Assembly (NCBI GenBank): GCA_024279915.1 | Contig: JAJRRB010000053.1 | Coordinates: 1 to 58,825, forward strand | Source of the DNA: Deltaproteobacteria bacterium | GTDB lineage: Bacteria; Desulfobacterota; Desulfuromonadia; Desulfuromonadales; BM103 | Length of the DNA: 58,825 nt | Direction: 5' to 3' | In this document: positions 156 through 22,993 of the stretch, piece after piece | How the letters are laid out: every line of letters starts with the position of its first letter | Numbering within the stretch: the first letter of the stretch is position 1 | Program-made: the position numbers and the translations under genes | Notes under the pieces: generated by a model | The model's input: only the letters and a program-made list of their open reading frames with translations | Told to the model about the DNA's origin: nothing | Databases searched by the model: none

Positions 156-1115
156 CTAGCGAAAAGCCCCGCGTCGGAACAAACGCCAAAAGATGATAAC
201 AAGGGCCAGAGGCGTAAAGCGTCTCAAAGCTGGGCTGACCTCGACACGAGCTCCGGAATGTCGCTCTATCTTCCAGAGGATGTAATCCACCCCACCTTTA
301 AAGGTAAAGAGCCCCTTCAGAAGGCGCAGGACGGAGAGGACCTTCCCTTGCAGAGTCCTTATGCGCCAGCCTGTGCTGCTTTTACGACGAGCCTGCGTGG
401 AGATCTGCACGCGATAGCTTGGGCCGGTTACACCTGCCTCGGCAGACACAGTAAAAGACATGTCAGCTAAGGCTGCGTCAGTTAACTTCTGATAGTATTC
501 GGGGTCGGCATCAAAGAGACGTGCTGCTTTGTCGGGTTGCTCTGTACGCAGCTCTGCACGATAACTGAGTGAAAGACCTTTGGCCCACAAATCACGAGCG
601 GTAAATGGTGATTCCAACTGAGGCAGTGTCCTGGTGATGAAGGTCATCACTGCGCAAGCCAAAGCCTCCTGGACCTGGTGGGTGACCAGCTGATCTTGTG
701 CATAGATGACGCCACACTTTTGAGAAAACCTTCCCCAGAGGTAAGAATGAAACCAATGCTCTGTCCCATTACGAAAGTCAGCGAGGGTGAGAACCGCGTA
801 CTTGGCTCGCAACACGTGCCCCTCAAAGGGGACTTCTAAATAGAAAACATTGGGTGGTAAGAGCTGATTGAAAAAGGCAAGAGTTCGCGTTTTGAAGGCT
901 GAACGGTAGTCATCAACCAAGAGATAAAAATCAGCGAGGCCCTCATGAACGTTGCCGGTTCGCAGGCAGGAGCCATAAAACAACACCGCACGAACAGAAT
1001 CACCATGACACGCACGGGCGGCTTCGACCAGAGCGCTGATGTCAGGCGACAGGTCTTGCCCTGGCTGCACCTGAAGCAGGTTTAAAAGCTTGTCTCTGTG
1101 GACATCTTCATTCAT
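156..1115 (-). CDS. Tam41-like nucleotidyltransferase (CDP-lipid synthase candidate)
   Basis: A 319-residue protein with the layout of Tam41/Mmp37, the mitochondrial-type CDP-diacylglycerol synthase that is unrelated to CdsA. An early FYGSCLR motif and a following ADFYLLVDD strand match the nucleotidyltransferase GS...D-x-D core (about residues 45-70). The block PNVFYLEV, then KYAVLTLADF, then YLWGRFSQK (about residues 88-135) matches the KYGV...Y-x-AGR-x-x-K signature of the family. There are no clear transmembrane segments, so it is probably a peripheral cytoplasmic enzyme using CTP and a phosphorylated lipid. It is the last complete gene of an operon with a lipid kinase and a CDP-alcohol phosphatidyltransferase, which fits making the CDP-lipid between them. 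Whether the lipid is phosphatidate or ceramide-1-phosphate is inference; the nearby ceramide genes favour the latter. It starts at ATG 1115 with only a weak ribosome site. Confidence 0.7.
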   Translation of the reverse strand: MNEDVHRDKLLNLLQVQPGQDLSPDISALVEAARACHGDSVRAVLFYGSCLRTGNVHEGLADFYLLVDDYRSAFKTRTLAFFNQLLPPNVFYLEVPFEGHVLRAKYAVLTLADFRNGTEHWFHSYLWGRFSQKCGVIYAQDQLVTHQVQEALACAVMTFITRTLPQLESPFTARDLWAKGLSLSYRAELRTEQPDKAARLFDADPEYYQKLTDAALADMSFTVSAEAGVTGPSYRVQISTQARRKSSTGWRIRTLQGKVLSVLRLLKGLFTFKGGVDYILWKIERHSGARVEVSPALRRFTPLALVIIFWRLFRRGAFR

Positions 1116-1134
1116 TGACCGTAGATACTCACCA

Positions 1135-2190
1135 TCAGCTTGGGCATAGGAACATGACGGGGTCAGTCGCCCTTATTGTAACAGTTTCCTGCTCTGCACT
1201 ATACAGCTCCCCATCAAGCGTAAAATCGCCATCCATTTCCAGTTGCACTTCGTGAACGTTATGACTGAAATAGCCGTTTTCCGGTGCCGCGTAGCGATTT
1301 TTTCGACCTCGAGCCAGAGAAGGCAGAGCCCGCAGCAGGCGTTTAGGCTCAGCACCGACAGCGGTATAGTGCAAGGGTCCGTCCTCTGTTCCCCAGTAAG
1401 GACGCATGCCGAGGAACAGTCGATCTAGAGTACTGACGAGAACAAAGAGATTCTTTCTCTCCTGCGGTGGTTGACCATTGAGGCTGGTCTTGGTCAACAG
1501 AGGCGGAACCTTGCGTTGATCCTTGCGTTGATCCTTGCATAGAATGGCCAGCATCATGCGAAGCAAAGTCAGGCCTGGCATCAGCTCGCCACGCCATCCC
1601 ATAGGGTTGACCCCACTGTGAAAAAGTTTGATGCCCCGACAGATAGCTCCAGCGCCAAAGAACATACCGAAAAGAGCAGATTGTTTAGAAGATTGCTGAA
1701 CCTGTAGAATCGGGCGTGGCAGCACAGCCAGACTCTTGTCTGTAGCTTTTGCCCAGCGCAAGATTCGTGATAGAGCAGATGTTGCAGAGCCTGGAACACC
1801 AACGTCCCGGGGAAGCATACTGGTGGTGCCAGCACATAGCAGAGCGAGCATTGGGGGCTTGGTAAAGATTTCACCGCGCCCAATGGCGGTTAACGTTGCA
1901 TGTGCAGTCCCATCTCCACCATTGATAACGACCAGTTCGACTCCGCTTCTGGCAAAATCCACCAAGGCTTCATTCATTCCTGCCGGAGTAAACTCTTCAC
2001 GGTGCAAAACGTCTGGCCACAGGGTTAAAATACTGCGAATCTCACTGAGGCCTTTTTTATTGCCACCTCTGCGCGGGTTGGTCAGCACCCCCACTTGCAA
2101 ACGCCTGCCATCCTCAAAGCTACACAGGCTATTCTCATAACCATTCAGGCCATTCTTATAGCAAGGCGGGGCAGATTCTGGTTTTTGCAC
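1135..2190 (-). CDS. Diacylglycerol-kinase-family lipid kinase (ceramide kinase candidate)
   Basis: A protein of about 351 residues with the DAGK catalytic domain. VGVLTNPRRGG begins the fold, and the nucleotide loop VVINGGDGT is followed by the substrate-side motif LLCAGTTSMLPRDVG. Family members phosphorylate diacylglycerol, sphingoid bases or, in Caulobacter (CpgB), ceramide. The neighbouring ceramide genes make ceramide kinase the best guess, but sequence alone does not fix the substrate. The start is uncertain. The frame stays open to 2334, but that would overlap the upstream gene by 137 bases, so a GTG at 2190 or TTG at 2220 just at the upstream stop is more likely; a GGAGAGG lies about 14 bases before the GTG. 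A 12-base tandem duplication gives a KDQRKDQRK stretch in the middle of the protein. Confidence 0.65.
   Translation of the reverse strand: MQKPESAPPCYKNGLNGYENSLCSFEDGRRLQVGVLTNPRRGGNKKGLSEIRSILTLWPDVLHREEFTPAGMNEALVDFARSGVELVVINGGDGTAHATLTAIGRGEIFTKPPMLALLCAGTTSMLPRDVGVPGSATSALSRILRWAKATDKSLAVLPRPILQVQQSSKQSALFGMFFGAGAICRGIKLFHSGVNPMGWRGELMPGLTLLRMMLAILCKDQRKDQRKVPPLLTKTSLNGQPPQERKNLFVLVSTLDRLFLGMRPYWGTEDGPLHYTAVGAEPKRLLRALPSLARGRKNRYAAPENGYFSHNVHEVQLEMDGDFTLDGELYSAEQETVTIRATDPVMFLCPS
1509..1538. repeat. 12-base tandem duplication within the lipid kinase gene
   Basis: The unit CCTTGCGTTGAT occurs twice head to tail, followed by half a third copy. It keeps the reading frame and repeats the residues KDQR in the kinase. 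It looks like a recent slippage or duplication event in a surface loop. Confidence 0.8.
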
Positions 2191-2197
2191 AGGGCCG

Positions 2198-3421
2198 CTA
2201 ATTTCCCTCTCCAGTATCAATGTCCGGTTTTTGACAAAACCATCTCTGATATACGGACAGCTGATCATTTGCAGGGTCAACATCCAGGAACCATGAACGC
2301 AAAGGGCCTGATTGTTTCTTAAACTGGAAACCACTTGCCAGGCGGTGGGTCAGGAACAAACTTGAAACAACTGTCCACATGCAGACTGCGAACAGGCCGA
2401 GGTCGGGACGTCCAAAGAGAAGACCGAGGGTGAAAAGGATCAGGTTGGGGTTGCGGCGCCCGGTGATCAGCCTGAAACAAGAGTCGATTGGTTGCCAGCA
2501 AAATATTCCAGAAGATTCGAGGTAGCGTATAAAAATTCCCTCACATACCCTACCGACAATATAGCCGACCACCGTTAACCAGAGGATCCATGACATTGAA
2601 ATGCCTGCGATCGTCGTATGCATTGTGTACAGGCTCAGACCCCAGGCAATATACCAAAGTGGCGGGAAGATCAGGTCAATACCATGATCAAAAATATTGC
2701 CGAAGGGACTGTAATTAATCGTGACTCTTGCCAGCTTGCCATCGACCGTGTCCAGAAAAGTCATTAACCAGGCAGAAACCAGTCCCCAGGCGTAAGCACC
2801 CACGTAGAACTGGTAGAGAGCCATAATCGACAAAACCAGACTCAAGCTCGTAACATGGTTCGGTACGATGCCGTTTCGAGCACATACACCGGTAACCCAT
2901 TGCGCTGGTACTGGCCAGAGCCATTTTGTAACCAGGTCAGTGACCCCTTTATAAGAGCCTGCGAAAAGACGTTTTTCCAAGCTCCGACGCTTTTCTTCAG
3001 TAATCGGCAGCAGGTATGGTGGGTCAATTTTACGTAATTTTTTTAGATAAACAGGAACCAGTGTTTCAGCAGACTCTCGACGTAAGCCTTCTGGGTAGTC
3101 GCCCGGGCTGTCATCACTGAGGAGGGACTCAATTGCATCGGCCATGTCGCCAGTGACATGGGCGGCGACTGGTTGTGGATCTTGAGCTGAGCTGGTTTCC
3201 AAAATGATACCAACCGTTTCAAGCATGTTGACGATAATGCGTTGATCGTAGAGGAAGTCGCTACGAAGAAGCAGAACGGTGTCTTCTTCAGCAACCGGCT
3301 GGGAGCTCTCTTGAATAGTGGAGATTCCCGCTTTATCGAGCATACGTTCAAGCCGCTCGCGGGAGGACAAACCCCATAATTGGACCTGGCTTTCTTGAAG
3401 GATTCTGGCGTATATTGCCAT
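2198..3421 (-). CDS. CDP-alcohol phosphatidyltransferase with degenerate N-terminal domain
   Basis: A 407-residue, two-part protein. The C-terminal half is a polytopic CDP-alcohol phosphatidyltransferase with the complete metal-binding signature DG-x2-AR-x8-G-x3-D-x3-D (about residues 224-246), which joins a CDP-activated lipid or alcohol to an alcohol or phosphate acceptor in the membrane. The first 125 residues (with VLLLRSDFLYD) resemble the nucleotidyltransferase half of bifunctional inositol-phosphate cytidylyltransferase/DIPP synthases. The usual nucleotide-binding G-rich start is absent, so this half is probably inactive. The linker YLKKLRKIDPPYLLP is typical of this subfamily. It is the first gene of the operon with the lipid kinase and the Tam41-like protein, and is divergent from a metallophosphoesterase. 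The likely role is the final step making a phosphodiester lipid; the acceptor is unknown. Confidence 0.75.
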   Translation of the reverse strand: MAIYARILQESQVQLWGLSSRERLERMLDKAGISTIQESSQPVAEEDTVLLLRSDFLYDQRIIVNMLETVGIILETSSAQDPQPVAAHVTGDMADAIESLLSDDSPGDYPEGLRRESAETLVPVYLKKLRKIDPPYLLPITEEKRRSLEKRLFAGSYKGVTDLVTKWLWPVPAQWVTGVCARNGIVPNHVTSLSLVLSIMALYQFYVGAYAWGLVSAWLMTFLDTVDGKLARVTINYSPFGNIFDHGIDLIFPPLWYIAWGLSLYTMHTTIAGISMSWILWLTVVGYIVGRVCEGIFIRYLESSGIFCWQPIDSCFRLITGRRNPNLILFTLGLLFGRPDLGLFAVCMWTVVSSLFLTHRLASGFQFKKQSGPLRSWFLDVDPANDQLSVYQRWFCQKPDIDTGEGN

Positions 3422-3487: not shown

Positions 3488-4510
3488 TTGCCTACAAAAG
3501 AATCATCGGTGGAAAAAACAAGGTCGTTACTATATACTCCCCGCATGGTGGATGTAAAGACAGAGGGTGAGGTAGAGACAAAGATAGAAACAGAGCCTTG
3601 CAGCTTTTCTCTGGCACATCTTGCCGACCTTCATCTGACTTCGTTAGATAGCATAAAGATCCCTCAATTATTCAACAAGCGCATACTGGGTTACTGCTCA
3701 TGGCGGCGCAAACGACGGATTGTTCATCGTCGTGAGATTATCGACTCTTTAGTTGAAGATTTACGCGTCACCTGCCCGGACCATATTACTGTTACCGGGG
3801 ACCTGACACATCTCGGTCTGCCTATGGAGTATGCGGAGGTTGCAAAATGGCTACCATCCCTCGGCGCTCCGAATCAGGTGACAATAATTCCCGGCAACCA
3901 TGACGCCTATGCAGGAAAAAGCTGGTTCAAGTCTTGCGCCATGTGGGCCCCCTACCTTGAGTCCGACATCGTTTTGGACACCCACAGAACAGCAGACTTT
4001 TTCCCCAGCTTGCGAATCCGAGGCCAGGTTGCTCTTATTGGCCTCAGCTCAGCCCGCCCCAGTCCACCTCTCTTTGCAACAGGTGCCCTTGGCCAGAAAC
4101 AGCTTGCAGCGTTGGACACTCTTTTAGAGACGACCGGCGATAAAGGTCTTTTGCGCATTGTTCTGATTCACCACCCACCTCTTCCAGGAATCGTCAACTG
4201 GCGCAAGTGTCTTACTGACAGCAAACCGTTTGCTGCTGTCATCGCTAAACGTGGTGCAGAGCTGGTGCTGCACGGTCATGCACACACTCCTTCTATTGCA
4301 GAGCTACAGACTCCTTCTGGCATGATCCCAGTCGTTGGGGCACCATCCGCGTCTGAATTGAACCAGCAGGCTGGACGTTCCGCCAAATACAATATTTACA
4401 GGTTGAGTAAAACTGGCAAGGCTTGGCAGCTGACGATGTCGATCAGGGGCTATTCAGAGGAACAGGGATGCTTCATTTCTGAATCAGAAAGAAGCCTTAA
4501 GTTGCCGTAG
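3488..4510 (+). CDS. Calcineurin-like metallophosphoesterase
   Basis: A protein of 320-340 residues with all metal-ligand motifs of the calcineurin-like phosphoesterases in order: LADLHL (D-x-H), TGDLTHLG (GD), PGNHDAY (GNHD), IHHPPLP and LHGHAHTPS (GH-x-H). The enzyme hydrolyses phosphomonoesters or phosphodiesters at a two-metal centre. No signal peptide is visible, so it is probably cytoplasmic. It is transcribed away from the CDP-alcohol phosphatidyltransferase, and could act on a phospholipid head-group or a nucleotide-linked intermediate, but its substrate is not shown. The start is uncertain: TTG at 3488 or ATG at 3545, neither with a strong ribosome site. Confidence 0.75.
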   Translation: MPTKESSVEKTRSLLYTPRMVDVKTEGEVETKIETEPCSFSLAHLADLHLTSLDSIKIPQLFNKRILGYCSWRRKRRIVHRREIIDSLVEDLRVTCPDHITVTGDLTHLGLPMEYAEVAKWLPSLGAPNQVTIIPGNHDAYAGKSWFKSCAMWAPYLESDIVLDTHRTADFFPSLRIRGQVALIGLSSARPSPPLFATGALGQKQLAALDTLLETTGDKGLLRIVLIHHPPLPGIVNWRKCLTDSKPFAAVIAKRGAELVLHGHAHTPSIAELQTPSGMIPVVGAPSASELNQQAGRSAKYNIYRLSKTGKAWQLTMSIRGYSEEQGCFISESERSLKLP

Positions 4511-4538: not shown

Positions 4539-5606
4539 TTAGGGAACACGTAACAACAGCCACAGCGTCATCAAGACAATGATGGTGAGGGGCAGCAAAG
4601 TCGTAAATGCGGGGTGGAGGCCGAGAATCAACCCTGTGTAGCCGAGGGCCTGATCAAAATAGAAGTAAGATATCCCGATAATCGTCCCGAGAGTAAGCCG
4701 CCGTCCGGAACTGGCCTCGCGCGCTTTGCCGAACACGCAAGGCAGAGAGAAAAAAATCATCGCTCCCACCTTGAACGGCAGAGTCAGCTTTTGCCACAAA
4801 GAAAGGACGTACTGATCTGTGTCCTGCCCCCTCTTCTGCAGGATCTGGATATAGTGATACAGGGCAGTGATGGACAGCATGTCCGGTGTGACACTCAGGA
4901 CATCCACCTGTTTATTCTTGAGAAAAACATCCAGTGTCAGAGTGGGGAAATCCCGATCAATAATAGCCGAGTCTGCAAAAGTGATTTGCCGTACATCTCT
5001 GCAGACCCAGCTTCCATCAGAAGCAACTTCTGCATTGCGAGCGGTCACATAACTGGATGGCTTGCCTTCTTCATCGAATTCATAAACACTGAGGTCACCA
5101 AGCCCTTCACCGGGAGTTGAATAGCGCACGTTGATGAAACGGCCGTTGTCCCGGGTCCAGAACCCCCCTTCCGGGAGCAGGGTTCCTGAATCGGCAAGAG
5201 CAAGCTCACGATTGAGCCTGGCTTGCTGCTCCAGCTGCGGGACAACAAACTGGGCGAGGAACAGGACTCCCAGCATCAACACAACCCCAGCGCCGAGGAT
5301 CACCCTGGCGATACGAAACACGGAAACACCACAGGCTCTCATGGCGAGTAGTTCATCGCCGTTAGCCAGAGTCCCAAGGGCTACGATACTGCCCAGCAAG
5401 GAACTTACAGCGGCCAGATTTAGAATTCGGCCAGGCGTGGTGTACGCAATATACTTGAATGCATCGACAATCTGATAGCGACCCTCACCAATGTCATCAA
5501 GTTGACCGACCAGTTCCAGGATAGAGAACAAGGCTGTCATGATCAGGAAGACCAACAGCCAGCCCCACACCAACCGGGTTCCTATGTAACGGAATAATGT
5601 TTTCAT
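4539..5606 (-). CDS. lptG: LPS export ABC transporter permease LptG
   Basis: About 355 residues of the LptF/LptG (YjgP/YjgQ) family: an N-terminal group of membrane helices (MKTLFRYIGTRLVWGW onward), then the conserved cytoplasmic-face segment LANGDELLAMRACGVSVFRIA that contacts LptB. A periplasmic beta-jellyroll follows (about residues 125-260), and there are three C-terminal helices. With LptF, LptB and LptC it extracts lipopolysaccharide from the inner membrane. It lies directly downstream of lptF. The frame is open to 5657, but ATG 5606 preceded by AGGA fits the family's N-terminus better. Confidence 0.9.
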   Translation of the reverse strand: MKTLFRYIGTRLVWGWLLVFLIMTALFSILELVGQLDDIGEGRYQIVDAFKYIAYTTPGRILNLAAVSSLLGSIVALGTLANGDELLAMRACGVSVFRIARVILGAGVVLMLGVLFLAQFVVPQLEQQARLNRELALADSGTLLPEGGFWTRDNGRFINVRYSTPGEGLGDLSVYEFDEEGKPSSYVTARNAEVASDGSWVCRDVRQITFADSAIIDRDFPTLTLDVFLKNKQVDVLSVTPDMLSITALYHYIQILQKRGQDTDQYVLSLWQKLTLPFKVGAMIFFSLPCVFGKAREASSGRRLTLGTIIGISYFYFDQALGYTGLILGLHPAFTTLLPLTIIVLMTLWLLLRVP

Positions 5607-5657
5607 AATTCCTGTCATCCAGAGCTTCCGGATGGACACCAGCAACCAGTCAGGCAA

Positions 5658-6713
5658 TCAATGAACGGGACGCCTGAGCATGATGATCAAGAAAAGAGCC
5701 AACAGGATATGTGGCCACCAGATCCCTGGGAAAGAGCCGACCACCTCCTGTTCCACCCAGGTCTTCGCCACAACCGTCAAATTGTAATAAACGGCAAAGA
5801 CAACGACAGCCAGGAAAGTCTTCGAATATTGACCTTGACGCGGAGCCGTTCGACACAAAGGAACGGCAAGCAATCCTAGCAGGATGGATGAGAGGCCAGT
5901 GGAAAGTCGCCATTGGAATTCAGCTTTATCCTCCGGGGATGACGAGGCTGCCAGACTCATTGTCGAAGCGGCTTTACGTCGATAACCGATGGAAGTGATT
6001 TCCTTGGGCACGAGTGGTAACAGGAAGCTTTGAAACCGAAAGAACGTTGTCTTGCTACCGTCCTTCGCGACCTCATAATGATAACCATCTCTTAGGATAA
6101 TGACTTTCTTGGCGGTTTCGGGGTCAACTTCCAGCCAGGCCTGACTGGCACGGGTTATCTTCCGTTTGGTACCGGTATACTGCTGAATAAATACACCTTC
6201 AGCACGTTCCTGATTGTCATCTATACCCTCCAGGAACACCACCAGGTTGTTTTCGCCAACTTCGTGAAAACGCCCTGGTTTCAAACGTGAAAAATCAAAG
6301 TTTGCTTCAGCGTTCGCTTTCAACCAATAACTTTTTTCGTAAGCCCAGGGACGCACATACAGGGAGAGCCCGGCAACCAGAACAGCGACCAGCAAAGAGA
6401 CTTTAAAAGCAGCGGAAAGCAGGCTCCGCTCTCCAAGACCACAGGCCTCCATGGCGATGACTTCCGAATCAGCATGCATCCTTCCCAGAACCGTTATGAT
6501 CGAGAAAAAAAGCGTTATGGGGATCAGTACTTCGAGGGCGATTAAGATTTTGAGGGAGACAAGGGCCAGAACGGTGGTTCCCGTCATCAACCCATCTGCA
6601 GCATCAGGAAGATACCGAGTGGTAGAATAACCAGCAAAGATGATGACCAGGATTCCACAGATGGTCGTCAGTGGAGTCAGTATCTCGCGGTTCAGGTAAC
6701 GATTGATAAGCAA
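5658..6713 (-). CDS. lptF: LPS export ABC transporter permease LptF
   Basis: A 351-residue membrane protein of the LptF/LptG family, with an N-terminal helix bundle, the segment GRMHADSEVIAMEACGLG that couples to the LptB ATPase, a periplasmic jellyroll region (about residues 120-255) and C-terminal helices. It forms the permease heterodimer with LptG, which follows at once. The cytidylyltransferase gene ends 22 bases upstream, so the three genes look co-transcribed. Its placement beside ceramide genes rather than lptB/lptC/kdsD is notable. Confidence 0.9.
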   Translation of the reverse strand: MLINRYLNREILTPLTTICGILVIIFAGYSTTRYLPDAADGLMTGTTVLALVSLKILIALEVLIPITLFFSIITVLGRMHADSEVIAMEACGLGERSLLSAAFKVSLLVAVLVAGLSLYVRPWAYEKSYWLKANAEANFDFSRLKPGRFHEVGENNLVVFLEGIDDNQERAEGVFIQQYTGTKRKITRASQAWLEVDPETAKKVIILRDGYHYEVAKDGSKTTFFRFQSFLLPLVPKEITSIGYRRKAASTMSLAASSSPEDKAEFQWRLSTGLSSILLGLLAVPLCRTAPRQGQYSKTFLAVVVFAVYYNLTVVAKTWVEQEVVGSFPGIWWPHILLALFLIIMLRRPVH

Positions 6714-6734: not shown

Positions 6735-7178
6735 TTATCTTACTAAAGTCTCTGCATCATATATGGTCTGAAGTGTTGATTTCAATGATGTTGAAGAAAC
6801 ATGATTTGTATATTCGAAATACACTACCTTCACGTCATATCCAGCTAACTCAGATTCTACTTGAGTAAAGAGCTCTGAGCCCTTCCAGTCGCTACCAACA
6901 AACATAACGTCAAAATTAATTTCATGGTACGAAGCAATTTTATCTCTATGTTTCTGTGGCACAACCTCATCAACACATTTAAGCGCAGAAACAATTTCGA
7001 TTCTTTCATCAAACGGGATGATCGGCTTTTTGCCTTTATAGGTCTCCACCAACTCGTCGGTGCTGACTCCCACAATAAGCCGGTCACAGCCATTTTTTGC
7101 CTTTTGCAATAATCTGAGGTGTCCGATATGGAACAGATCAAACACCCCGGTTGTATAGCCAACAATCTCTTTTTTCAT
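6735..7178 (-). CDS. Glycerol-3-phosphate cytidylyltransferase-like nucleotidyltransferase
   Basis: A 147-residue single-domain nucleotidyltransferase of the TagD/RfaE-C type. The GVFDLFHIGHLRLL segment carries the HxGH motif, a lysine follows in YKGKKPIIPF-x-ER, and the family's second motif appears as SSTSLK (about residue 130). Members transfer CMP (TagD) or AMP (HldE) to a sugar- or polyol-phosphate. The VGSDWKG and Y-x-x-HVSSTSLK pattern is closest to the TagD/GCT group, so CDP-glycerol or a similar CDP-polyol is the likely product. It sits upstream of lptF in a ceramide locus and could supply an activated head-group, or serve the glycan genes. The substrate is inferred only. Confidence 0.7.
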   Translation of the reverse strand: MKKEIVGYTTGVFDLFHIGHLRLLQKAKNGCDRLIVGVSTDELVETYKGKKPIIPFDERIEIVSALKCVDEVVPQKHRDKIASYHEINFDVMFVGSDWKGSELFTQVESELAGYDVKVVYFEYTNHVSSTSLKSTLQTIYDAETLVR

Positions 7179-7315: not shown

Positions 7316-8131
7316 CTAGCGAGGGCCTTCCTGGTTTCTTTTTGCCAGGATTTCTTCAACCAGGAGCCAATCATCGACTTTGTCGACGTCAACCGCTGCT
7401 TCCGCAAAAGGCATCTCGACAACTCCTACCTTAAGATTCATCCTGTTTGACAATTGAGTCAGAGCGTACTCCAGGGTCAGTTGCCCAAGGAGGTAGCGCA
7501 ACACGGCCGACCAGCCCAGGACCTTCACGACCCGCAATGGCTTCTTGCGCTCACTCTCCACCTGGCACCAGAAGTCAGCGGCACGGCGAGCCTGCGGGGT
7601 CAGAAATGCAAAGAGATTGCAGCCACAGTAGCCACCATCTTTTAGTTTTGTGACCGTTCGCAAGGTGTTGGGGAAAGCGGGTGAAATCAAATCGTAGCTG
7701 GCCACCCCGGCCAGAACATCGCAGCCGCTTTTGCGCGCTTCAGCACAAAAATGATCGACCATCTCAGAACTCAGCAATGCATGGTCCGCAGTGGTCAGTA
7801 AAACCGGCACATCTTCCGGCAAAGATTGCAGGACAGTAAAGGCGCTAGAACTTGGCGTGGCTTTTGGAGCAACCCACTGGACCTTGCCTGAGTTGACCAG
7901 GTCATTGAGCTCGGCATTCTGTTCGACGGATTTTCTTGCTGGCCCACAGAGGATACGGTTAGCCACCTCACGAGCCTCTGCCAACGCGTCAAGTACACGC
8001 AAGACCATCGGCCTGCCAGCAACCGGCGTCAACGCTTTGCAACTCACTCCCGCAGCCTGCGCCACAGGATCGTTCAATTCACGGTCGCCAGCAAGGATGA
8101 CTACGGCAAACGGCTGGCCTGGCAATTTCAT
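7316..8131 (-). CDS. NTP transferase (MobA-like nucleotidyltransferase)
   Basis: A 271-residue protein with a MobA/GlmU-like Rossmann nucleotidyltransferase fold: N-terminal AVVILAGDRELND (a variant of the LAGG-x-G start), KALTPVAGRPMVLRVLDAL, LLTTADHALLS (the acidic metal site) and DVDKVDDW near the end. It probably makes a nucleotide-activated compound; the substrate is unknown. The gene starts at ATG 8131, only two bases after the upstream stop and preceded by AAGGAG, so it is translationally coupled to the ceramide-synthase candidate. The frame stays open to 8395 but that part only shadows the upstream gene. This tight pairing suggests a role in the ceramide pathway or its head-group. Confidence 0.65.
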   Translation of the reverse strand: MKLPGQPFAVVILAGDRELNDPVAQAAGVSCKALTPVAGRPMVLRVLDALAEAREVANRILCGPARKSVEQNAELNDLVNSGKVQWVAPKATPSSSAFTVLQSLPEDVPVLLTTADHALLSSEMVDHFCAEARKSGCDVLAGVASYDLISPAFPNTLRTVTKLKDGGYCGCNLFAFLTPQARRAADFWCQVESERKKPLRVVKVLGWSAVLRYLLGQLTLEYALTQLSNRMNLKVGVVEMPFAEAAVDVDKVDDWLLVEEILAKRNQEGPR

Positions 8132-8133
8132 TT

Positions 8134-9297
8134 TTAGCTGAGCTCCTTCTGGTAGATGCGATATCGTTTGTAACAAACACTGCCGACCGATTCGATAATT
8201 TTTCGTATGCCATGGTTCTGTTCCAGTATCCAGGACATATCGATCTCCTTCATGCCTTGTTTGCGCGCATTCACATGTAGAGGAGCTATCATCATCAGTG
8301 CCAGAGTCGCCCCCAGTCTGCTCCCCTGATAACGACGTCTGACTCCCATCAGGGGGATTCTTGCTGACTTGGCTCCAACGACTTTCAGGCGCCACAGGAG
8401 TTTCAGCCAGCCAAACGGGAGGAGCCGACCGTTCAAATCCTTGATCATCTCATTAATGTTTGGAAACATAACGATCATGGCGGCTGGTTCTCCATCGACT
8501 TCGGCAATTCTGACCGAGTCAGCGTCCACTAGCAGCTTAAGGTTTTTCCCCAAATCAGCGAATTCCGCCTGAGTAAAAGGAATAAATCCCCAGTTTTCAG
8601 ACCATGCATCTTCAAAAATGTCCCGAATTATTTCAAGGTCTTCCTCGAAACGGTCCCGGCGCATTGTGCGAATCTTGACCCGACCTGCAACCCGTTTGGC
8701 AAGAGCTTCTAAGTGCTGCGGAGGAGAAACCTCAGGATGCACCCGATAGGCGAGCAGGTCCTGCTCTTTGGCAAAGCCCTGTTCTTCAACACGCGGCCCA
8801 TAATAAGGCAGAGCATGACCCAGCATAATTGCCGGTGGGCTATCAAAGCCTTCTACCAGCAAACCGCACTCGTCGTTGACTGACAGGCTGAATGGGCCAC
8901 GAATTCGTCGCATTCCCTTCTGGCGTAGCCACTCTTCAGCTATCTCAAACAGGGCGTGGAATATCTCGGGGTTATCCTCGGCCTCCAGAAAACCAAAAAA
9001 ACCTGTTGCATCATGGTGATGCTGCAAATGGAGTTGATCGACCTGTGCGCTGATTCGTCCAACAACACGATCATCACGGCAGGCTATCCAGGCTTGAAAT
9101 TCAGCATGTTCAAAATAAGGATTTTTGGATGAAAGATGCTCTTTTCTCTCAAATATCAACGGAGGGACCCAACAGGGGTCTTTTGCATACAGTGACCATG
9201 GCAGTTCAATGAATTTTCTCATTAAACGGCTACCAGTAACAGCGATGATCCGTAATCTCCCTGCGTCTATCTTTTTACTTGCGACCCTGTTTTGCAC
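8134..9297 (-). CDS. GNAT-like N-acyltransferase, bacterial ceramide synthase (bCerS) candidate
   Basis: A 387-residue protein with two GNAT-like halves: an N-terminal block with DPCWVPPLIFERKEHL and RGPFSLSVNDECGLLVEGF, and a C-terminal block with MGVRRRYQGSRLGATLALMM, the acyl-CoA-binding-like R-x-x-G-x-G/A region. The motif set, including GHALPYYGPRVEEQGF, matches the large acyltransferase that in Caulobacter adds the second acyl chain to 3-ketosphinganine. It would use acyl chains activated by the divergent acyl-AMP ligase. It heads a - strand operon (with the NTP transferase and beyond), divergent from the ligase, carrier protein and serine palmitoyltransferase genes, which supports the call. 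The start is a GTG at 9297 without a good ribosome site; a start nearer residue 26 is possible. Confidence 0.7.
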   Translation of the reverse strand: MQNRVASKKIDAGRLRIIAVTGSRLMRKFIELPWSLYAKDPCWVPPLIFERKEHLSSKNPYFEHAEFQAWIACRDDRVVGRISAQVDQLHLQHHHDATGFFGFLEAEDNPEIFHALFEIAEEWLRQKGMRRIRGPFSLSVNDECGLLVEGFDSPPAIMLGHALPYYGPRVEEQGFAKEQDLLAYRVHPEVSPPQHLEALAKRVAGRVKIRTMRRDRFEEDLEIIRDIFEDAWSENWGFIPFTQAEFADLGKNLKLLVDADSVRIAEVDGEPAAMIVMFPNINEMIKDLNGRLLPFGWLKLLWRLKVVGAKSARIPLMGVRRRYQGSRLGATLALMMIAPLHVNARKQGMKEIDMSWILEQNHGIRKIIESVGSVCYKRYRIYQKELS

Positions 9298-9393
9298 TGC
9301 GACTCAGTTATCCATTGAAATAGGCTAGTTGTGTGCCAGAAAGAACTGACAAATTGAAGCATAGCTGATACTTCATTAGTATGTAAGAAATTT

Positions 9394-9562
9394 CTAGCAG
9401 CCTTTCGGACAATCAGGGCTGAAGCGAAAATTTGAATGTTTGAGGCCAGATTTTGGCTCATTTGAGAGTAATAGCCGTAGCTATTGGTCGAAAAGGAGCT
9501 GAAATATGGACCAAACAGACGAACTTGCAGCCAGTTTATTGATTGTCCGACAGGCTGCTAGC
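9394..9562. repeat. Long imperfect palindrome (dispersed extragenic element)
   Basis: The outer arms CTAGCAGCCT...CGGACAATCA and TGATTGTCCGA...AGGCTGCTAG are inverted copies. The inner arms GGCCAGATTTTGGCTC and GAGCTGAAATATGGACC also pair imperfectly, and the centre is AATAGC-CGTA-GCTATT near 9478. The whole 169-base segment is therefore one quasi-palindrome. It fills most of the gap between the divergent ceramide operons and carries no gene. It looks like a non-autonomous, MITE-like or REP-like element. Confidence 0.7.
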
Positions 9563-9634
9563 AAAGGAGGACGCACCCTGTGACATATTAGCCACACTAA
9601 ATTGAAAAAAATGCAACAATTACACATTTGTAAT

Positions 9635-9664
9635 TTGACAAATAGTGCCCTATTCCCCTACTCT
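9635..9664 (+). promoter_or_regulatory. Possible promoter for the acyl-AMP ligase operon
   Basis: A perfect -35 box TTGACA at 9635-9640 is followed after 18 bases by TACTCT, a weak -10 box. The ATG at 9714 is about 45 bases further on. If this promoter is used, a GTG start at 9645 is excluded. Confidence 0.3.
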
Positions 9665-9713
9665 ATCGATTGTTTCATATATTGGCATTAACATTGCTTT
9701 TGACACGGGTAAC

Positions 9714-11546
9714 ATGAATTTTCTAAATCCTACTTCGACAGAAAGCCACATCTCTCTTCGAACCGCTGATTTTTCTAACTTGGCAGAAGCACTTGATTAT
9801 GCTGCCAAAGGAATGAGTGGGTTCAATTTCTATGACGGGCGTGGAAAACTCCGCACGGTTCTCCCCTATTCAGTTCTACAGAAAGAAGCTCAGACTCTGG
9901 CAAAGCGTCTACTTGGCCTTAAGTTGGCAAGAGGATCGCGAGTTGCCATTGTCGCGGAAACCCACCCGGATTTTCCGCGTTTCTTTTTTGCTTGTCAATA
10001 TGCTGGCTATACCCCTGTTCCGTTACCTGCCTCAATCCACTTAGGTGGACAGAAAGCTTACGTTGAACAACTGCGCAGCTTGCTGGCGAAAAGTCAGGCA
10101 GACATTGCCGTTGCACCAGTAGAGTTCCTCCCCTTCCTTCAGGAAGCCACAAAAGGGCTGGAACTGAAACTTGTCGGCACACCTCAAGCATTTGATGAAC
10201 TCATAGAATCTTCTGTTGAACTAGCTCCACTACAAGCTGAAGAGACGGCCTATATCCAATACACTTCGGGGAGTACGCTTTTCCCAAGAGGCGTTATGGT
10301 GAGCGGAGCAGCTGTGATGCACAATCTTGCCGGTATCACCAGAGATGGATTGAAAATTCGTAGTGGTGACAGATGTGTCTCCTGGTTGCCCTACTACCAC
10401 GACATGGGGCTGGTCGGCTTTGTCCTGGCCCCCTTGGCTGCACAACTTTCGGTAGATTATCTGGCCACCCGTGATTTTGCCATGCGTCCTCGCCTGTGGC
10501 TGAGCTTGATGTCCGATAATAAAGGGACCATCTCTTTTGGCCCTCCCTTCGGCTATGAGCTCTGTACACGCAGAGTTCGTAGCGATGCCGAGCATTTTGA
10601 CCTCAGTCGCTGGCGTGTTGCTGGAGTTGGCGCAGAAACAATCCGTATTGAGATTCTGGAAGCCTTCACTGAGAAAATGGCCCCCTTTGGCTTTGACCGT
10701 AAAGCTTTTCTAGCCAGCTACGGCATGGCTGAGTGTTCCCTTGCCGTCAGCTTTAGCAAACTTGGACAGGGGGCGACTGTTGATGAAATCAACGCTGAAT
10801 GTTTGTCAGTCAGTCAAGAAGCTCTCCCTGTTGCTGATTTTTCTGAAGACGAGTTGAAAGGCATCCACACCAAAAAACTGGTGGATTGCGGTGTTCCGTT
10901 GCCTGGGCATAAGATTGTTGTGCGTGATGAGCACGGTCAGGCTCTGCCAGATCGAAAATGTGGCACTATTTATGTGCAAGGCCCAAGTGTGATGTGCGGT
11001 TACTTTGGTGACCCTGTTGCAACGGCCAAAGTTCTTTCTGCTGATGGATGGTTGAACACAGGTGACATCGGTTACCTTCATGATGGCAACCTGGTGATCA
11101 CCGGCCGTGAAAAAGATATGATCATTATCAACGGGCGCAACTTATGGCCTCAGGATCTTGAGTTCTATGCAGAGCAGCAACCTGAAATCAGGCCTGGCGA
11201 TGCTTCAGCAATCTCGGTTCCGTCAGCGGATGGCTCAGAAATGGCTGTCATGGTTGTCCAGTACCGAGAAACAAACGAAAGTAAACGATCTGAAATGTTA
11301 AACCGCCTTGCTCGAATTATTCGAGAGGAAGTGGGTATTAACTGCACCATTGAGCTTGTTCCCGCACATACCCTGCCCAGGACTTCTTCAGGAAAACTTT
11401 CCCGCGCTGGCACTCAACGCGATTATTTGCGTCGTCAAGAAGAGCAGAAAAAACTGAGTGTCAAATCTTTGTTTGAAGAACAGAATATGAGTGAGAACAA
11501 TTCTGATTTACGCCTTGCTGCCGTTGGACAAAGGTATGCACATTAA
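9714..11546 (+). CDS. Fatty acyl-AMP ligase / acyl-ACP synthetase of the sphingolipid locus
   Basis: A 610-residue adenylate-forming enzyme of the fatty-acyl-AMP ligase type. Its P-loop is QYTSGSTLFPRGVMVS, the variant with SGST and R found in acyl-AMP ligases rather than SGTTG-x-PK of acyl-CoA ligases. SWLPYYHDMGL, ASYGMAECS and NTGDIGYLHDG follow, and the hinge GREKDMIIINGRNLWPQDLE is clear. The C-terminus has the TSSGKLSRAGT lysine motif and a short extra tail. It would activate a fatty acid and load the carrier protein encoded next. The caulobacterial sphingolipid cluster has an equivalent enzyme. ATG 9714 is chosen because a TTGACA box lies upstream; the frame is open from GTG 9645. Confidence 0.8.
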   Translation: MNFLNPTSTESHISLRTADFSNLAEALDYAAKGMSGFNFYDGRGKLRTVLPYSVLQKEAQTLAKRLLGLKLARGSRVAIVAETHPDFPRFFFACQYAGYTPVPLPASIHLGGQKAYVEQLRSLLAKSQADIAVAPVEFLPFLQEATKGLELKLVGTPQAFDELIESSVELAPLQAEETAYIQYTSGSTLFPRGVMVSGAAVMHNLAGITRDGLKIRSGDRCVSWLPYYHDMGLVGFVLAPLAAQLSVDYLATRDFAMRPRLWLSLMSDNKGTISFGPPFGYELCTRRVRSDAEHFDLSRWRVAGVGAETIRIEILEAFTEKMAPFGFDRKAFLASYGMAECSLAVSFSKLGQGATVDEINAECLSVSQEALPVADFSEDELKGIHTKKLVDCGVPLPGHKIVVRDEHGQALPDRKCGTIYVQGPSVMCGYFGDPVATAKVLSADGWLNTGDIGYLHDGNLVITGREKDMIIINGRNLWPQDLEFYAEQQPEIRPGDASAISVPSADGSEMAVMVVQYRETNESKRSEMLNRLARIIREEVGINCTIELVPAHTLPRTSSGKLSRAGTQRDYLRRQEEQKKLSVKSLFEEQNMSENNSDLRLAAVGQRYAH

Positions 11547-11770
11547 GCTCGTCTCTTCAGCTCTCCTCAAATGAACTCAACTGTGGCAACTATTTTGTTT
11601 ACTGCACTCAATGTTGGTCTTAGCAAAGCGTAGAGTATCTCCATAGAGGCTGGACTGCGACAACCTCGCAGCTATCCGTATAATCGGCTAACCCCGCGGG
11701 TTTCATTTCAAGAAGAAATGGAACGTTTTTTTTATCAACAGCCCTATTCAACCTTTGGAGTTGAACAGCT

Positions 11771-12025
11771 ATGACAACCACCCAATATCATGATATCTTT
11801 AAGCAGGTCGAAGGCCTGCTGCTGCGATATGCCCCGCAACAAGTACCAATTCAGGATGACACAAATCTGATCAACGACCTGGGTTTTGACTCGTTAAAAG
11901 TGATGGACATGCTGAATGAGGTAGAAGATGTTTTCGACATCACCTACCCTTTAAACGACCTGGCGTCGCTCCATACAGTTAGAGACTTTGTCTTACAAAT
12001 TCAAAAGATAATAGAGAATAGTTAA
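11771..12025 (+). CDS. Acyl carrier protein of the sphingolipid locus
   Basis: An 84-residue acyl carrier protein. The phosphopantetheine site is Ser41 in LGFDSLKVMDM, in the usual place, followed by the acidic helix EVEDVFDI. It is distinct from the housekeeping AcpP type in sequence. Its stop codon overlaps the start of the serine palmitoyltransferase gene (TAATG), so the two are translationally coupled. This is the arrangement of AcpR-type carrier proteins that feed acyl chains to serine palmitoyltransferase. The 224 bases upstream hold only short hairpins and no gene. Confidence 0.85.
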   Translation: MTTTQYHDIFKQVEGLLLRYAPQQVPIQDDTNLINDLGFDSLKVMDMLNEVEDVFDITYPLNDLASLHTVRDFVLQIQKIIENS

Positions 12026-13212
12026 TGGGAATTCTAGATAAGCTTAATGCGATAGCAACAACCCGCCAGACATTGCTTCCCGAAGGGGTTGACCCTTTCA
12101 ATGTCGTCATCGAGAAGATTTATTCCTCCACAGAGGGCTCTATTGCCGGGCAAAAGGTTATACTGGCCGGCACCAATAACTACCTTGGGCTGACCTTTGA
12201 CCAGCAATGCATAGAAGCCGCCCAAGAGAGCCTCTCTAAAGAAGGGACGGGAACGACAGGGTCGCGTATGGCAAACGGCACTTTTTCAGGACATCGTGAC
12301 CTGGAACAAGAGCTGGCCCTTTTTTACGGCTGCAGTAATGCAATTGTCTTTTCGACCGGTTTCGTCACAAATCTTGGGATGATTTCCGCATTGACCGGAC
12401 CAGGCGACGTCATTGTTCTGGATGCAGACTCTCATGCAAGCATCTATGATGCCTGCAAGATGAGTGGCGCTGAAATGATCCGCTTCCGCCACAACAATAT
12501 GGTCGATCTGGAAAAAAAGCTTAAGCGCCTGGGGCCACGGACCGCAAAAACCCTGATCATTGTTGAAGGCATATACAGTATGTTGGGTGATTGTGCCCCG
12601 TTAGCAGAGGTTGCGGCCCTTAAGCAAAAATACGGTGCATGGGTGATGGTTGATGAGGCGCATTCTATGGGCGTTCTAGGCGACCATGGCCGTGGTATGG
12701 CAGAGGCTGCTGGTGTTGAACAAGAGGTTGATTTCATCGTCGGTACCTTCAGCAAAAGCCTCGGAGCTATTGGTGGCTACTGCGTCAGCAACCACCCGGA
12801 GTTGGATCTGGTGCGGTACGTCAGTCGCTCTTATGTTTTTACCGCGTCACCCTCACCTTCAACCATTGCATCTGTGCGACAAGCCTTGCGAGTCGTCCAG
12901 TCTAAACCGCAACTACGCACGAAACTCTGGGAAAATGCTGACCGGCTTTACCAGGGGCTCGAAAAGTTGGGCTTAGAGCTTGGCCCTGATCCTGGCCCGA
13001 TAGTCGCAATCCGTGTAGCAACCAGAGAAAAGGCATTGTTTGCCTGGAAATCGCTGTTGGATCAAGGTATCTATGTCAACCTGGTTTTTCCACCGGCTGC
13101 CCCGGCGGGTATGAGTCTTCTACGTTGCAGTATCAGTGCGGCCCATACAGCCGAACAAATTGATTATATACTGAAAGTTTTTTCCGAAATGCAAGACTCA
13201 TTTTCAAATTGA
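12025..13212 (+). CDS. spt: Serine palmitoyltransferase (PLP alpha-oxoamine synthase)
   Basis: A 395-residue PLP enzyme of the alpha-oxoamine synthase family, which condenses serine with a fatty acyl thioester to give 3-ketosphinganine. Visible: NNYLGLT near residue 51, GTGTTGSRM (75-82), the PLP-stacking His in DADSHASIYD, the PLP-aspartate motif VMVDEAHSMG (Asp210, His213) and the Schiff-base lysine K244 in GTFSKSLGAIGG. The relatives KBL, BioF and ALAS share the fold, so the serine specificity rests on the coupled carrier protein, the acyl-AMP ligase and the ceramide-synthase candidate around it. No membrane segment is present, as in soluble bacterial SPTs. Confidence 0.85.
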   Translation: MGILDKLNAIATTRQTLLPEGVDPFNVVIEKIYSSTEGSIAGQKVILAGTNNYLGLTFDQQCIEAAQESLSKEGTGTTGSRMANGTFSGHRDLEQELALFYGCSNAIVFSTGFVTNLGMISALTGPGDVIVLDADSHASIYDACKMSGAEMIRFRHNNMVDLEKKLKRLGPRTAKTLIIVEGIYSMLGDCAPLAEVAALKQKYGAWVMVDEAHSMGVLGDHGRGMAEAAGVEQEVDFIVGTFSKSLGAIGGYCVSNHPELDLVRYVSRSYVFTASPSPSTIASVRQALRVVQSKPQLRTKLWENADRLYQGLEKLGLELGPDPGPIVAIRVATREKALFAWKSLLDQGIYVNLVFPPAAPAGMSLLRCSISAAHTAEQIDYILKVFSEMQDSFSN

Positions 13213-13256
13213 AGCGCAGGTCGAGCAGAGCTAAGCCTGGCATAGGAAGTTCGTTC

Positions 13257-13931
13257 ATGATTAAATGTGTCGCCTTTGATTTCGATGGCACTCTGGTTGA
13301 TTCCAACGACATCAAAAGAGAAACTTTTTTTGAGATCGCTCACCCCTGGGATACTTCGGGTGAAGTTGTTGCTGAAGTCTATGAGCGCTGGCCACTGGCT
13401 GATCGTTATGAAAAAACCCGCAAGATAGCTGAAGGATTAATCAACAGAAAGCTGTTGCCGGAGGGTTCCTCTGTAGAGAGTTGGGGAGCACGTCTGGCGA
13501 GTGATTACACAACACTAGTGGAAAACACCATCACCAGCAGTGCAGAAATGCCTGGTGCGAGCCAGGCCCTCATGAACCTCTCAGAACTGGGTGTGCTGTT
13601 GTTCGTCAATTCAGCCACACCGATCGGGCCATTGCGGCGACTGCTGGAATTGCGTCACTGGGCGCACTTTTTTCGTGCCGTCTATGGTGCAGAAGCTTCT
13701 AAAGCCGACAACCTCAGGAGCATTGCTCTGGAAAGCGACGCAGCCATGAATGAAATCGTCCATGTCGGCGACCAACCCGACGACCTGCGGGGCGCAGAAC
13801 AGTGTAACTGCCACTTTGTCGCCATGGCGGCTGGCAACGTCGTTCCTGTAATCAGAAAGTCTCCCCTTCTTGTCGAAGATTTACGAGAACTGCCTACCCT
13901 GTTTAACAGGATATCCCAAGAGACTGCATGA
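13257..13931 (+). CDS. HAD-superfamily hydrolase (phosphatase)
   Basis: A 224-residue HAD hydrolase. Motif I is FDFDGTLVDS (Asp8, Asp10), motif II is the Ser/Thr in FVNSATP, a lysine lies in GAEASKADNL, and motif IV is HVGDQPDDLRGA. It has a cap of the phosphoglycolate-phosphatase type between motifs I and II. It sits 44 bases after the serine palmitoyltransferase gene in the same operon and might remove a phosphate from a pathway intermediate or head-group; its substrate is not shown. The ATG at 13257 is preceded by AGGAAG; the frame is open slightly further upstream. Confidence 0.75.
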   Translation: MIKCVAFDFDGTLVDSNDIKRETFFEIAHPWDTSGEVVAEVYERWPLADRYEKTRKIAEGLINRKLLPEGSSVESWGARLASDYTTLVENTITSSAEMPGASQALMNLSELGVLLFVNSATPIGPLRRLLELRHWAHFFRAVYGAEASKADNLRSIALESDAAMNEIVHVGDQPDDLRGAEQCNCHFVAMAAGNVVPVIRKSPLLVEDLRELPTLFNRISQETA

Positions 13932-13992
13932 TCAGTTGCTGTCAGATTAATAACTTTTTTCAAGCGTTCTAATAAAGGATAGATAAAATCAA

Positions 13993-14838
13993 ATGATACG
14001 ATATGAAGCTAAATCATGGCCCCCAAAACGTTATATCAAATTGTTTTATAAATATATTCTTGGGTTTAGGCAATGGTTGACACAGGATATTCATATTATT
14101 GATGGGCAGCATGACTATCGATTTCGCTGCGGAACCGTTCGCGTATACCGTCGTTACTTAAAACTTTTCTTAAAGGAACCTGGTACTGTCGATTGGATAA
14201 ATCAAAATGTCAAAGATGGGGATATTTTCTATGATATCGGAGCCAATGTTGGCGTTTACACCATATTTGCAGCCACCCGTACAGGAGATAAGGGCAAAGT
14301 ATATGCATTCGAACCCCATGGAGCCAACTTTGCCCGGTTGATTGACAATATTACGGCCAACGACCTTCAGCAAACTGTCTCTCCTGTCAACTTTGCACTG
14401 CACAACAAAGAGGGCTTTTTCCCTTTTCTTTACGAATCCAGTGCAGTGGGCACATCAAACAGCCAACTTACAGACAGCCGCGATGTAACCAAAGTTAAGA
14501 ATGCAGCACCAATTTGCGAACGGAAGTATGCGACCACCATTGACCATCTTATTGATGCGGGTGAAATCACCCCCCCCCATCACATCAAAATCGATGTGGA
14601 TGGTAATGAATTTCTCATCCTTGAAGGGATGAATCAGCTGCTGTCCAGTATACATCGCCCCATATCAATCCAGGTCGAAATGAATGACCCACATAAACCT
14701 CAGATCCTAGAGTTTTTGAAAAGTCACGGGTATTGTTTAGTACACAAGCATTTCACACGGGCGCAGTCTCGGAAAATCAAGGAAGGTAGCGAACCGGAAT
14801 CACTCGGCTACAATGCGATCTTTCGCCATGAGGGTTGA
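13993..14838 (+). CDS. FkbM-family methyltransferase
   Basis: A 281-residue SAM-dependent methyltransferase. The SAM-binding motif is FYDIGANVGVYTIFAA (about residues 78-93), followed by YAFEPHGANFARL and the FkbM signature HIKIDVDGNEFLILEGM near residue 198. Members O-methylate sugars or polyketides, and in glycan clusters usually surface sugars. The first 150 bases are more AT-rich than the neighbouring genes. It follows the HAD gene by about 60 bases on the same strand, and is convergent with a sulfotransferase gene, so it marks the border between the lipid and glycan genes. Confidence 0.8.
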   Translation: MIRYEAKSWPPKRYIKLFYKYILGFRQWLTQDIHIIDGQHDYRFRCGTVRVYRRYLKLFLKEPGTVDWINQNVKDGDIFYDIGANVGVYTIFAATRTGDKGKVYAFEPHGANFARLIDNITANDLQQTVSPVNFALHNKEGFFPFLYESSAVGTSNSQLTDSRDVTKVKNAAPICERKYATTIDHLIDAGEITPPHHIKIDVDGNEFLILEGMNQLLSSIHRPISIQVEMNDPHKPQILEFLKSHGYCLVHKHFTRAQSRKIKEGSEPESLGYNAIFRHEG

Positions 14839-14892
14839 ACCTCTTTGCAGGAATCCAAACATATTACTTCCTTTCCAGTCGTGGGCCCATCC

Positions 14893-15747: not shown

Positions 15748-15757
15748 CTATTAACTC

Positions 15758-17167: not shown

Positions 17168-17261
17168 GAGAGGGATCCTTATTCTTTTACGAGGTCATTT
17201 CTCCGACAGTTTGTTGGGTCAGAGTTCGGCATCAAACTGCAGGCAGTCAGCAGCCTATTTT

Positions 17262-18665: not shown

Positions 18666-18697
18666 GGTCTTGCCCGTCCTCCGCGAAACTATTCTTA

Positions 18698-20626: not shown

Positions 20627-20634
20627 AATTTTGA

Positions 20635-21399: not shown

Positions 21400-21447
21400 A
21401 CATATACCCACTTAAGGTTGATACGAAAAGAAAAAATCAATATAGAT

Positions 21448-22920: not shown

Positions 22921-22993
22921 TTCAGTTCCGTTTATATGTATTTATGTTTGGTTAAATAATGATTAGAGACAACAAGGAAAGAGTCATACCAAA

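Follow-up and report, generated by a model that had tools for sequence, protein, structure and literature searches.

We analysed a 58,825-nucleotide stretch of contig JAJRRB010000053.1 (positions 1 to 58,825, forward strand; assembly GCA_024279915.1) from a Deltaproteobacteria bacterium of the Desulfuromonadales, hereafter the window, which opens with genes for a Tam41-like nucleotidyltransferase, a lipid kinase and a cytidine diphosphate (CDP)-alcohol phosphotransferase. With a probability of about 65%, we read these genes as part of a Desulfuromonadales form of the cpg locus that in Caulobacter serves anionic phosphosphingolipids, in which the kinase and the Tam41-like enzyme would form a core acting on ceramide and the transferase would belong to an add-on acting later on the head group, with a TagD-like cytidylyltransferase at the position where other loci have CpgD. 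The counterpart status, the split into core and add-on and the TagD-like swap are new here; an activated ceramide is already in print. The nearest named relatives are Desulfuromonadales.

All three genes are encoded on the minus strand in frames uninterrupted by stop codons: the Tam41-like gene at 156..1115 (PF09139, E=2.5e-7, 30.8 bits against a cut-off of 24), the kinase in an open frame at 1135..2334 (PF00781 DAGK_cat, E=3.9e-11) and the transferase, which has an extra N-terminal domain, at 2198..3421 (PF01066, E=5e-11). They are the counterparts of CpgC/CC_1161, CpgB/CC_1160 and CpgA/CC_1159, respectively. The first-pass annotation had placed such a trio in one operon beside ceramide genes, and the Pfam matches bear this out, with CerS, AasR, AcpR and Spt following at 8134-13212. 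Relatives can be aligned with nearly the full length of the Tam41-like protein and of the transferase, and with the kinase from residue 80 onward; because homology of the kinase begins at about residue 80 of the open frame 2334-1135, its true start is probably 2190 or 2100/2094.

Whether the caulobacterial cpg genes are direct counterparts, a point that the first-pass annotation had left unchecked, can be answered with yes. In Caulobacter (published work is cited throughout from the available portions of each source) the region CC_1168-CC_1152 includes CC_1161 with a CDP-diacylglycerol (CDP-DAG) synthase domain, the ceramide kinase CC_1160, the CDP-alcohol transferase CC_1159, the phosphoesterase CC_1158, LptF2/LptG2, the ceramide synthase (CerS) CC_1154, CC_1153 and CC_1152/CpgD (PMC11324152, PMC12275187), and CC_1160/CpgB, CC_1161, CC_1159 and CpgD have been studied genetically and biochemically (PMC11324152, PMC12275187, PMC10331486). 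PF09139 gave no match in 14 control genomes, Caulobacter among them, so the link to Caulobacter runs through published gene order and annotated relatives, for which proteins from Roseomonas, Pseudomonas, Diaphorobacter and Qipengyuania were compared with the window. Two Roseomonas plasmids carry phosphoesterase, CDP-alcohol transferase, kinase and Tam41-like genes in the order seen in the window, near genes for Spt, an acyl carrier protein (ACP), a CerS-like protein, an NTP_transf_3-type nucleotidyltransferase (NTP gene), LptF/LptG and a CpgD-like protein. Identity to the window is 31-40% for the Tam41-like protein (five proteins), 26-33% for the kinase (five), 41-43% for the transferase (four alpha-, beta- and gammaproteobacterial proteins; a second Diaphorobacter copy, at 35%, was left out), 36-47% for the NTP gene (four), 46-48% for CerS (two) and 51% for Spt (one), the overall range being 26-51% except for one Pseudomonas phosphoesterase at 25%. 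By sequence comparison, then, these annotated relatives tie the window locus to the Caulobacter cpg region as its counterpart.

Among the loci of the best 80 of 392 relatives, many of these loci being short, the kinase is found together with the Tam41-like gene in 75, and the pairing is therefore not chance. CDP-alcohol transferase genes occur in 44 of the 80, and 13 loci with LptF, LptG and the kinase have none. Whole genomes were counted in a second set, the window's own and 49 others, all with a Tam41-like gene and picked with and without an adjacent transferase, using E<=1e-100 for CpgA-type transferases and E<=1e-90 for CpgD. The transferase is present in 25 of these 50 genomes, a split that is meaningless in itself given how they were chosen, and CpgD in 22; both are present in 21, the transferase without CpgD in four, CpgD alone in one (L047, where the contig breaks off next to the kinase) and neither in 24. 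All 24 of the last group have the kinase in the Tam41-like locus and 14 have Spt; three of them (G395, G397, G407) show weaker transferase matches (1e-11 to 5e-15), which we counted as other family members. Wherever the CpgA-type transferase occurs, CpgD (21 genomes) or a TagD-like gene (four) occurs too, 25 times out of 25. On a tree of the Tam41-like protein, at least 8 changes of state are needed for the transferase and at least 7 for CpgD-or-TagD. The transferase alignment (A2) contains D-x2-DG-x2-AR-x8-G-x3-D-x3-D, which we take to be the CDP-alcohol phosphotransferase motif; displacement of cytidine monophosphate (CMP) is the reaction of this family. From these distributions the kinase and the Tam41-like gene look like a core, and the CpgA-type transferase with CpgD or the TagD-like gene looks like an add-on. 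Such a scheme fits Caulobacter genetics, in which ceramide phosphoglycerate (CPG), the first product, needs CC_1160 and CC_1161, CPG2 needs CC_1159, CC_1153 and CC_1152, CC_1158 contributes, and CC_1159 is, in the available text, dispensable for CPG (PMC11324152). These two jobs are blurred by gene order alone and separated by genome comparison. Five loci (L051, L056, L064, L065, L115) have two CpgA-type copies around the Tam41-like gene, perhaps serving longer head-group chains.

CpgD was not found in the window's own genome, where the best match (3e-26, 93 bits) has other neighbours and compares with 319-424 bits in the 22 genomes that have it, and the locus is for this reason classed as a variant and not as a maker of CPG2. 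The genomes with the transferase and without CpgD are the window's and those of L025, L027 and L028, and exactly these four of the 50 carry the TagD-like gene (83-100% identity); among the other 49 genomes the orthologue stands at 83-88% in three, and every remaining match is at or below 49% identity and 71 bits. In the window it lies at 6735..7178 on the minus strand (PF01467, E=4e-19; PDB 1COZ, E=1e-17), within the lpt block and 21 bases before LptF. A full CpgD was seen in 22 of the 80 loci, LptF being the next of the genes looked for (partial matches in L080 and L089 were set aside), and in some genomes, such as those of L060 and L102, CpgD is located elsewhere; the slot before LptF is held by the TagD-like gene in the window, L025, L027, L028 and L031. 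As the four TagD-like genomes form one clade, the swap was counted as one event. The name TagD-like is used because the protein misses the NCBIfam equivalog cut-off for TagD (91.1 against 165.4 bits). Relatives at 62% and 48% identity adjoin LicD and CDP-glycerol glycerophosphotransferase genes, by which the donor made by the TagD-like enzyme is likely to be CDP-glycerol or similar. It could also be that the gene serves surface polysaccharide synthesis and lies here by chance, since both annotated relatives with surroundings examined lie in polysaccharide loci and the window has polysaccharide-type genes of its own at 14893-24879. We hold this to be unlikely, the gene being placed inside the lpt block, in CpgD's slot, in all five loci just named, and being confined, within the set of 50, to genomes that have CpgA and lack CpgD.

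The Tam41-like protein was modelled with AlphaFold2 from 54 sequences (mean pLDDT 82, pTM 0.81), and the model has the nucleotidyltransferase plus winged-helix fold described for Tam41 (PMC7018664). Foldseek against the PDB returned Tam41 as all of its top five matches (E 4e-11 to 8e-9, TM-score 0.50-0.64), spanning 273-296 alignment columns (query 319 residues) at 16-18% identity and a root-mean-square deviation of 5.0-7.1 A, and a profile from 12 relatives matches 6IG2 and 6IG4 (1e-10) as well as the bacterial 7ECD (5e-6). Residues invariant among the 54 sequences include Y47-G48-S49, D62, K105, R129-F130 and Y185, and the KY and RF positions of Tam41 align with K105-Y106 and R129-F130. On the basis of the modelled fold, the profile match and the aligned KY and RF positions, cytidylyl transfer onto a lipid phosphate is likely, the fold being silent on which lipid.

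Gene co-occurrence points to ceramide. We surveyed 395 genomes of the phylum, counting the Tam41-like gene at E<=1e-20 with our alignment A1 and Spt (serine palmitoyltransferase) at E<=1e-130, with only the best few candidates per genome scored for each; PF09139 (E<=0.001) finds 12 of these genomes against 28 with A1, missing over half of the relatives. The Tam41-like gene is present in 28 genomes, Spt in 18 and both in 17, that is, in 17 of 18 genomes with Spt against 11 of 377 without it (Fisher p 1e-21, uncorrected for ancestry). Two of these 11 carriers (G056 and G360) have a diverged Spt-like gene (37% and 32%) with CerS nearby, and two drafts (G001 and G356) hold several cpg genes; three (G011, G049, G085) have a gene of another subfamily next to one or two kinases, and no clear ceramide gene is in view there; another three (G018, G174, G135) have a kinase and a Tam41-like gene with no Spt in view, and in G031 the gene stands alone. 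In the set of 50 genomes, a true Spt (E<=1e-160) occurs in 37 and, truncated by a contig end, in one more; CerS (E<=1e-100) occurs in 39, and either of them in 45. CdsA is present in 48 of the 50, and a role for the Tam41-like protein as a stand-in for CdsA was rejected on this count; replacing CdsA does not define the Tam41 family, and the protein can belong to it all the same. By the first-pass annotation the CDP-ceramide idea would fail if homologues accompanied CdsA-lacking genomes and not ceramide genes; the distribution found in both surveys is not of that kind.

Two groups of loci deserve separate mention. One Tam41-like clade (L039, L048, L050, L052, L053; support 97) keeps the kinase, and no Spt was found in it, yet L050 and L053 keep CerS at 60-61%. 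Draft gaps may explain the absence of Spt from this clade; runs of N, mostly 100 long, occur in L035, L037, L050 and L099, which makes a missing Spt in those four weak evidence. A separate Tam41-like subfamily (L015, L016, L018; about 31% identity to the window's protein) has one or two DAGK-type kinases adjoining and no clear ceramide gene in view, and its kinase and Tam41-like pairing may serve another lipid.

We propose the following scheme, in which each reaction is predicted from the gene content, fold, co-occurrence and gene replacement observed. AasR, AcpR, Spt and CerS would build the ceramide backbone, the kinase would convert ceramide to ceramide-1-phosphate, and the Tam41-like enzyme, using cytidine triphosphate (CTP), would convert ceramide-1-phosphate to CDP-ceramide, a step we are inclined to accept. 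The first head-group unit would then enter in exchange for CMP, through an enzyme outside the trio or a housekeeping CDP-alcohol transferase, and the CpgA-type transferase would act later, extending the product by another unit, with a CDP-activated head group as donor. Its donor in most species looked at would be CDP-glycerate, from CpgD; in the window's clade, where the TagD-like gene replaces CpgD, the added unit would probably be glycerol-like (from CDP-glycerol), or else the TagD-like enzyme, unrelated to CpgD, would be the maker of CDP-glycerate. Transport of the lipid to the outer membrane is the probable role of the LptF/LptG pair. CDP-ceramide, which the first-pass annotation had put forward as a striking head-group strategy, is a plausible intermediate as far as sequence evidence goes, and it is not a new idea: a nucleoside diphosphate (NDP)-activated ceramide was suggested as a possible product of CC_1161 in PMC11324152. 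Our literature search for CDP-ceramide and its spelling variants returned nothing, though the idea is in print under the NDP name, and papers on Tam41 with ceramide or Tam41 in bacteria, judged by titles and the starts of abstracts, included none on this locus.

Several observations weigh against this scheme. In five of the 50 genomes the Tam41-like gene is accompanied by neither Spt nor CerS, and the larger, 54-sequence profile gives a weaker Tam41 match than the smaller one (6IG2/6IG4, 9e-7), with 7ECD not listed. The counts share ancestry, and only three independent pairs fall on supported branches (two agree and none oppose; sign test p 0.5, from a quick tree and underpowered). No dedicated CMP-displacing enzyme for the CDP-ceramide step was identified, each of the 50 genomes having 1 to 8 PF01066 proteins. 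Of the 24 loci that lack both CpgA and CpgD, 12 keep the NTP_transf_3 counterpart close to the core, which the scheme leaves unexplained; in Caulobacter CC_1153 is needed for CPG2 and not for CPG, and its mutant also accumulates ceramide, according to the available portion of PMC11324152. Desulfobacterota have been linked to 1-deoxyceramides, which are without the C1 hydroxyl needed by a kinase (PMC11334938, as far as available).

Other explanations of the trio were weighed too. Were the Tam41-like protein an ordinary CDP-diacylglycerol synthase acting on phosphatidate, its fold and profile match would be expected, and a Firmicutes Tam41 does make CDP-DAG (PMC11646218); this is nevertheless improbable, as CdsA accompanies it in 48 of 50 genomes, the gene tracks Spt, a lipid kinase, superfluous for phosphatidate made by acylation, lies in 75 of 80 loci, and deletion of CC_1161 in Caulobacter abolishes CPG and CPG2 (PMC11324152). 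We give similarly little credence to an enzyme that uses ceramide-1-phosphate and yields a product other than CDP-ceramide, for example by joining it to nucleotide-activated glycerate supplied by the NTP_transf_3 gene: that gene's position near kinase and Tam41-like gene in 12 of 24 loci, and the failure to see a conserved CMP-displacing partner, would suit such a reaction, but the Tam41 residues and fold indicate CMP transfer from CTP and, as noted, CC_1153 is not needed for CPG. Least convincing is the order of steps in the first-pass annotation, whose opening part, kinase and then Tam41-like enzyme on ceramide, agrees with the tracking of Spt and the retention of CdsA, and whose ending, the adjacent transferase consuming CDP-ceramide, was rejected as the best last step: adjacency of the trio in the window and Roseomonas and CMP-displacing chemistry fit it, but 25 of 50 genomes lack the transferase at our threshold (CpgD, too, is missing from all but one of these, and Spt is present in 14 of the 24 that have neither gene), in none of the 25 genomes that have it does it occur without CpgD or a TagD-like gene, and CC_1159 is dispensable for CPG.

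Beyond the trio, the block contains LptF/LptG, metallophosphoesterase, NTP_transf_3 and TagD-like genes, which the first-pass annotation of the trio had not named and which are all important for its interpretation. A CC_1158-like metallophosphoesterase at 3488..4510 (plus strand; PF00149, E=9e-13) is 43% identical to a Roseomonas cpg-locus gene. It is followed on the minus strand by two LptF/LptG-family permeases, the LptG of the pair at 4539..5657 (PF03739, 239 bits) and the LptF at 5658..6713 (PF03739, 220 bits), then, past the TagD-like gene, by an NTP_transf_3 nucleotidyltransferase, CC_1153-like by position, at 7316..8131 (PF12804, E=8e-13; the longest frame starts at 8395) and the CC_1154-like bacterial ceramide synthase CerS at 8134..9297 (46-48% identity to Diaphorobacter and Roseomonas counterparts). 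On the plus strand are the acyl-ACP synthetase AasR at 9645..11546 (fatty acyl-AMP ligase model, 785 bits, cut-off 600), an ACP, AcpR by position, at 11771..12025 (PF00550, 41.8 bits) and Spt at 12025..13212 (NCBIfam NF047599, 627 bits, cut-off 500). The first base of the contig, which is also the start of the window, lies directly past the end of the Tam41-like gene. The CerR reductase was not found within the window, the rest of the genome not having been searched for it; it stands beside AcpR in the relative L122 (genome of L028). The HIT gene of the Roseomonas loci was not among the ten open reading frames of the block that were run against Pfam.

The cpg block is followed at 13209-24879 by a sialic-acid-like (nonulosonate) gene set, comprising a HAD phosphatase just past Spt, a weak sulfotransferase match, two TIGR04396 surface-carbohydrate proteins, and transketolase-like, PseF/NeuA-like, ALDH, SDR and NeuB genes. 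In L122 the genes CerR-AcpR-Spt are followed by NeuB (89%) and SDR (80%); in L074 the sulfotransferase-to-NeuB genes, at 65-88% identity, come directly after the Tam41-like gene, its cpg genes being only 38-54% identical; and L061 and L119 have other NeuB/HAD/NeuA/TIGR04396 sets near the Tam41-like gene. A nonulosonate-capped phosphosphingolipid is possible; the literature on nonulosonic acid and sphingolipids that we found concerns mostly animal and human glycolipids. An MsbA-like ABC transporter at 25319-27079 has relatives at 47-57% near cpg or Spt genes in L036, L051, L061 and L105, among others, and by analogy with the proposal for CC_1166 (PMC11324152) it is possibly a sphingolipid flippase. 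Large parts of the ceramide and cpg sets are also borne by IncP-type plasmids of Pseudomonas sp. JS425 (pPNP1; L105) and Diaphorobacter sp. JS3051 (pDCB2; L107); no CerS is listed for L105, where that stretch has an IS5 element, and no Spt for L107 in the stretch read.

The conversion of ceramide-1-phosphate to ceramide phosphoglycerate is an open step in the field, and the available portions of a 2025 paper (PMC12275187) and a 2026 preprint (PMC13228409) describe the mechanism of CpgC as unidentified. The core/add-on split points to the enzyme that should be tested for CDP-ceramide formation, with the organisms that seem to be without the add-on as clean backgrounds. From the exchange of CpgD for a TagD-like gene, a different head group is predicted for this bacterial group, in which our literature search found no description of a phosphosphingolipid. 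A wider picture can be offered tentatively, as possible and short of probable: CDP-ceramide would be real and mirror the CDP-DAG pathway, the kinase and Tam41-like core would be common to Desulfobacterota, Nitrospirota and Proteobacteria with interchangeable modules for CDP-activated units, and the window's clade, having exchanged CpgD for the TagD-like gene, would make a ceramide phosphoglycerol-type lipid, perhaps with a sialic-acid-like cap from the neighbouring NeuB cluster.

Compared with known systems, the Tam41-like protein resembles the Tam41 CDP-DAG synthases (6IG2, 6IG4 and the bacterial 7ECD) in fold and in the conserved KY and RF positions, but it is only 16-18% identical to them, the GSG loop seems to be GSC (in a weak alignment), and its gene stands in a ceramide context, beside CdsA and not instead of it. 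The transferase has its catalytic core in common with AF2299-type CDP-alcohol transferases, DIPP synthase and choline/ethanolamine phosphotransferases, and a weak N-terminal similarity to AF2299; scores against these enzymes are weak (E 2.5e-6 to 0.02), and in A2 it forms a subfamily of its own. The TagD-like protein agrees with the glycerol-3-phosphate cytidylyltransferase TagD in family, in size and in its match to 1COZ, whereas the NCBIfam models for rfaE domain II (92.5 bits) and TagD (91.1 bits) score almost equally, each under its cut-off, and give no decision, and the best PDB score belongs to ethanolamine-phosphate cytidylyltransferase, as a two-domain sum. With the Caulobacter cpg region the locus shares the ceramide genes, the ceramide kinase, CpgC, CpgA, the phosphoesterase, the nucleotidyltransferase by CerS and the LptF/LptG pair; it differs in the failure to find CerR within the window and in having a TagD-like gene in the place of CpgD, which was not found.

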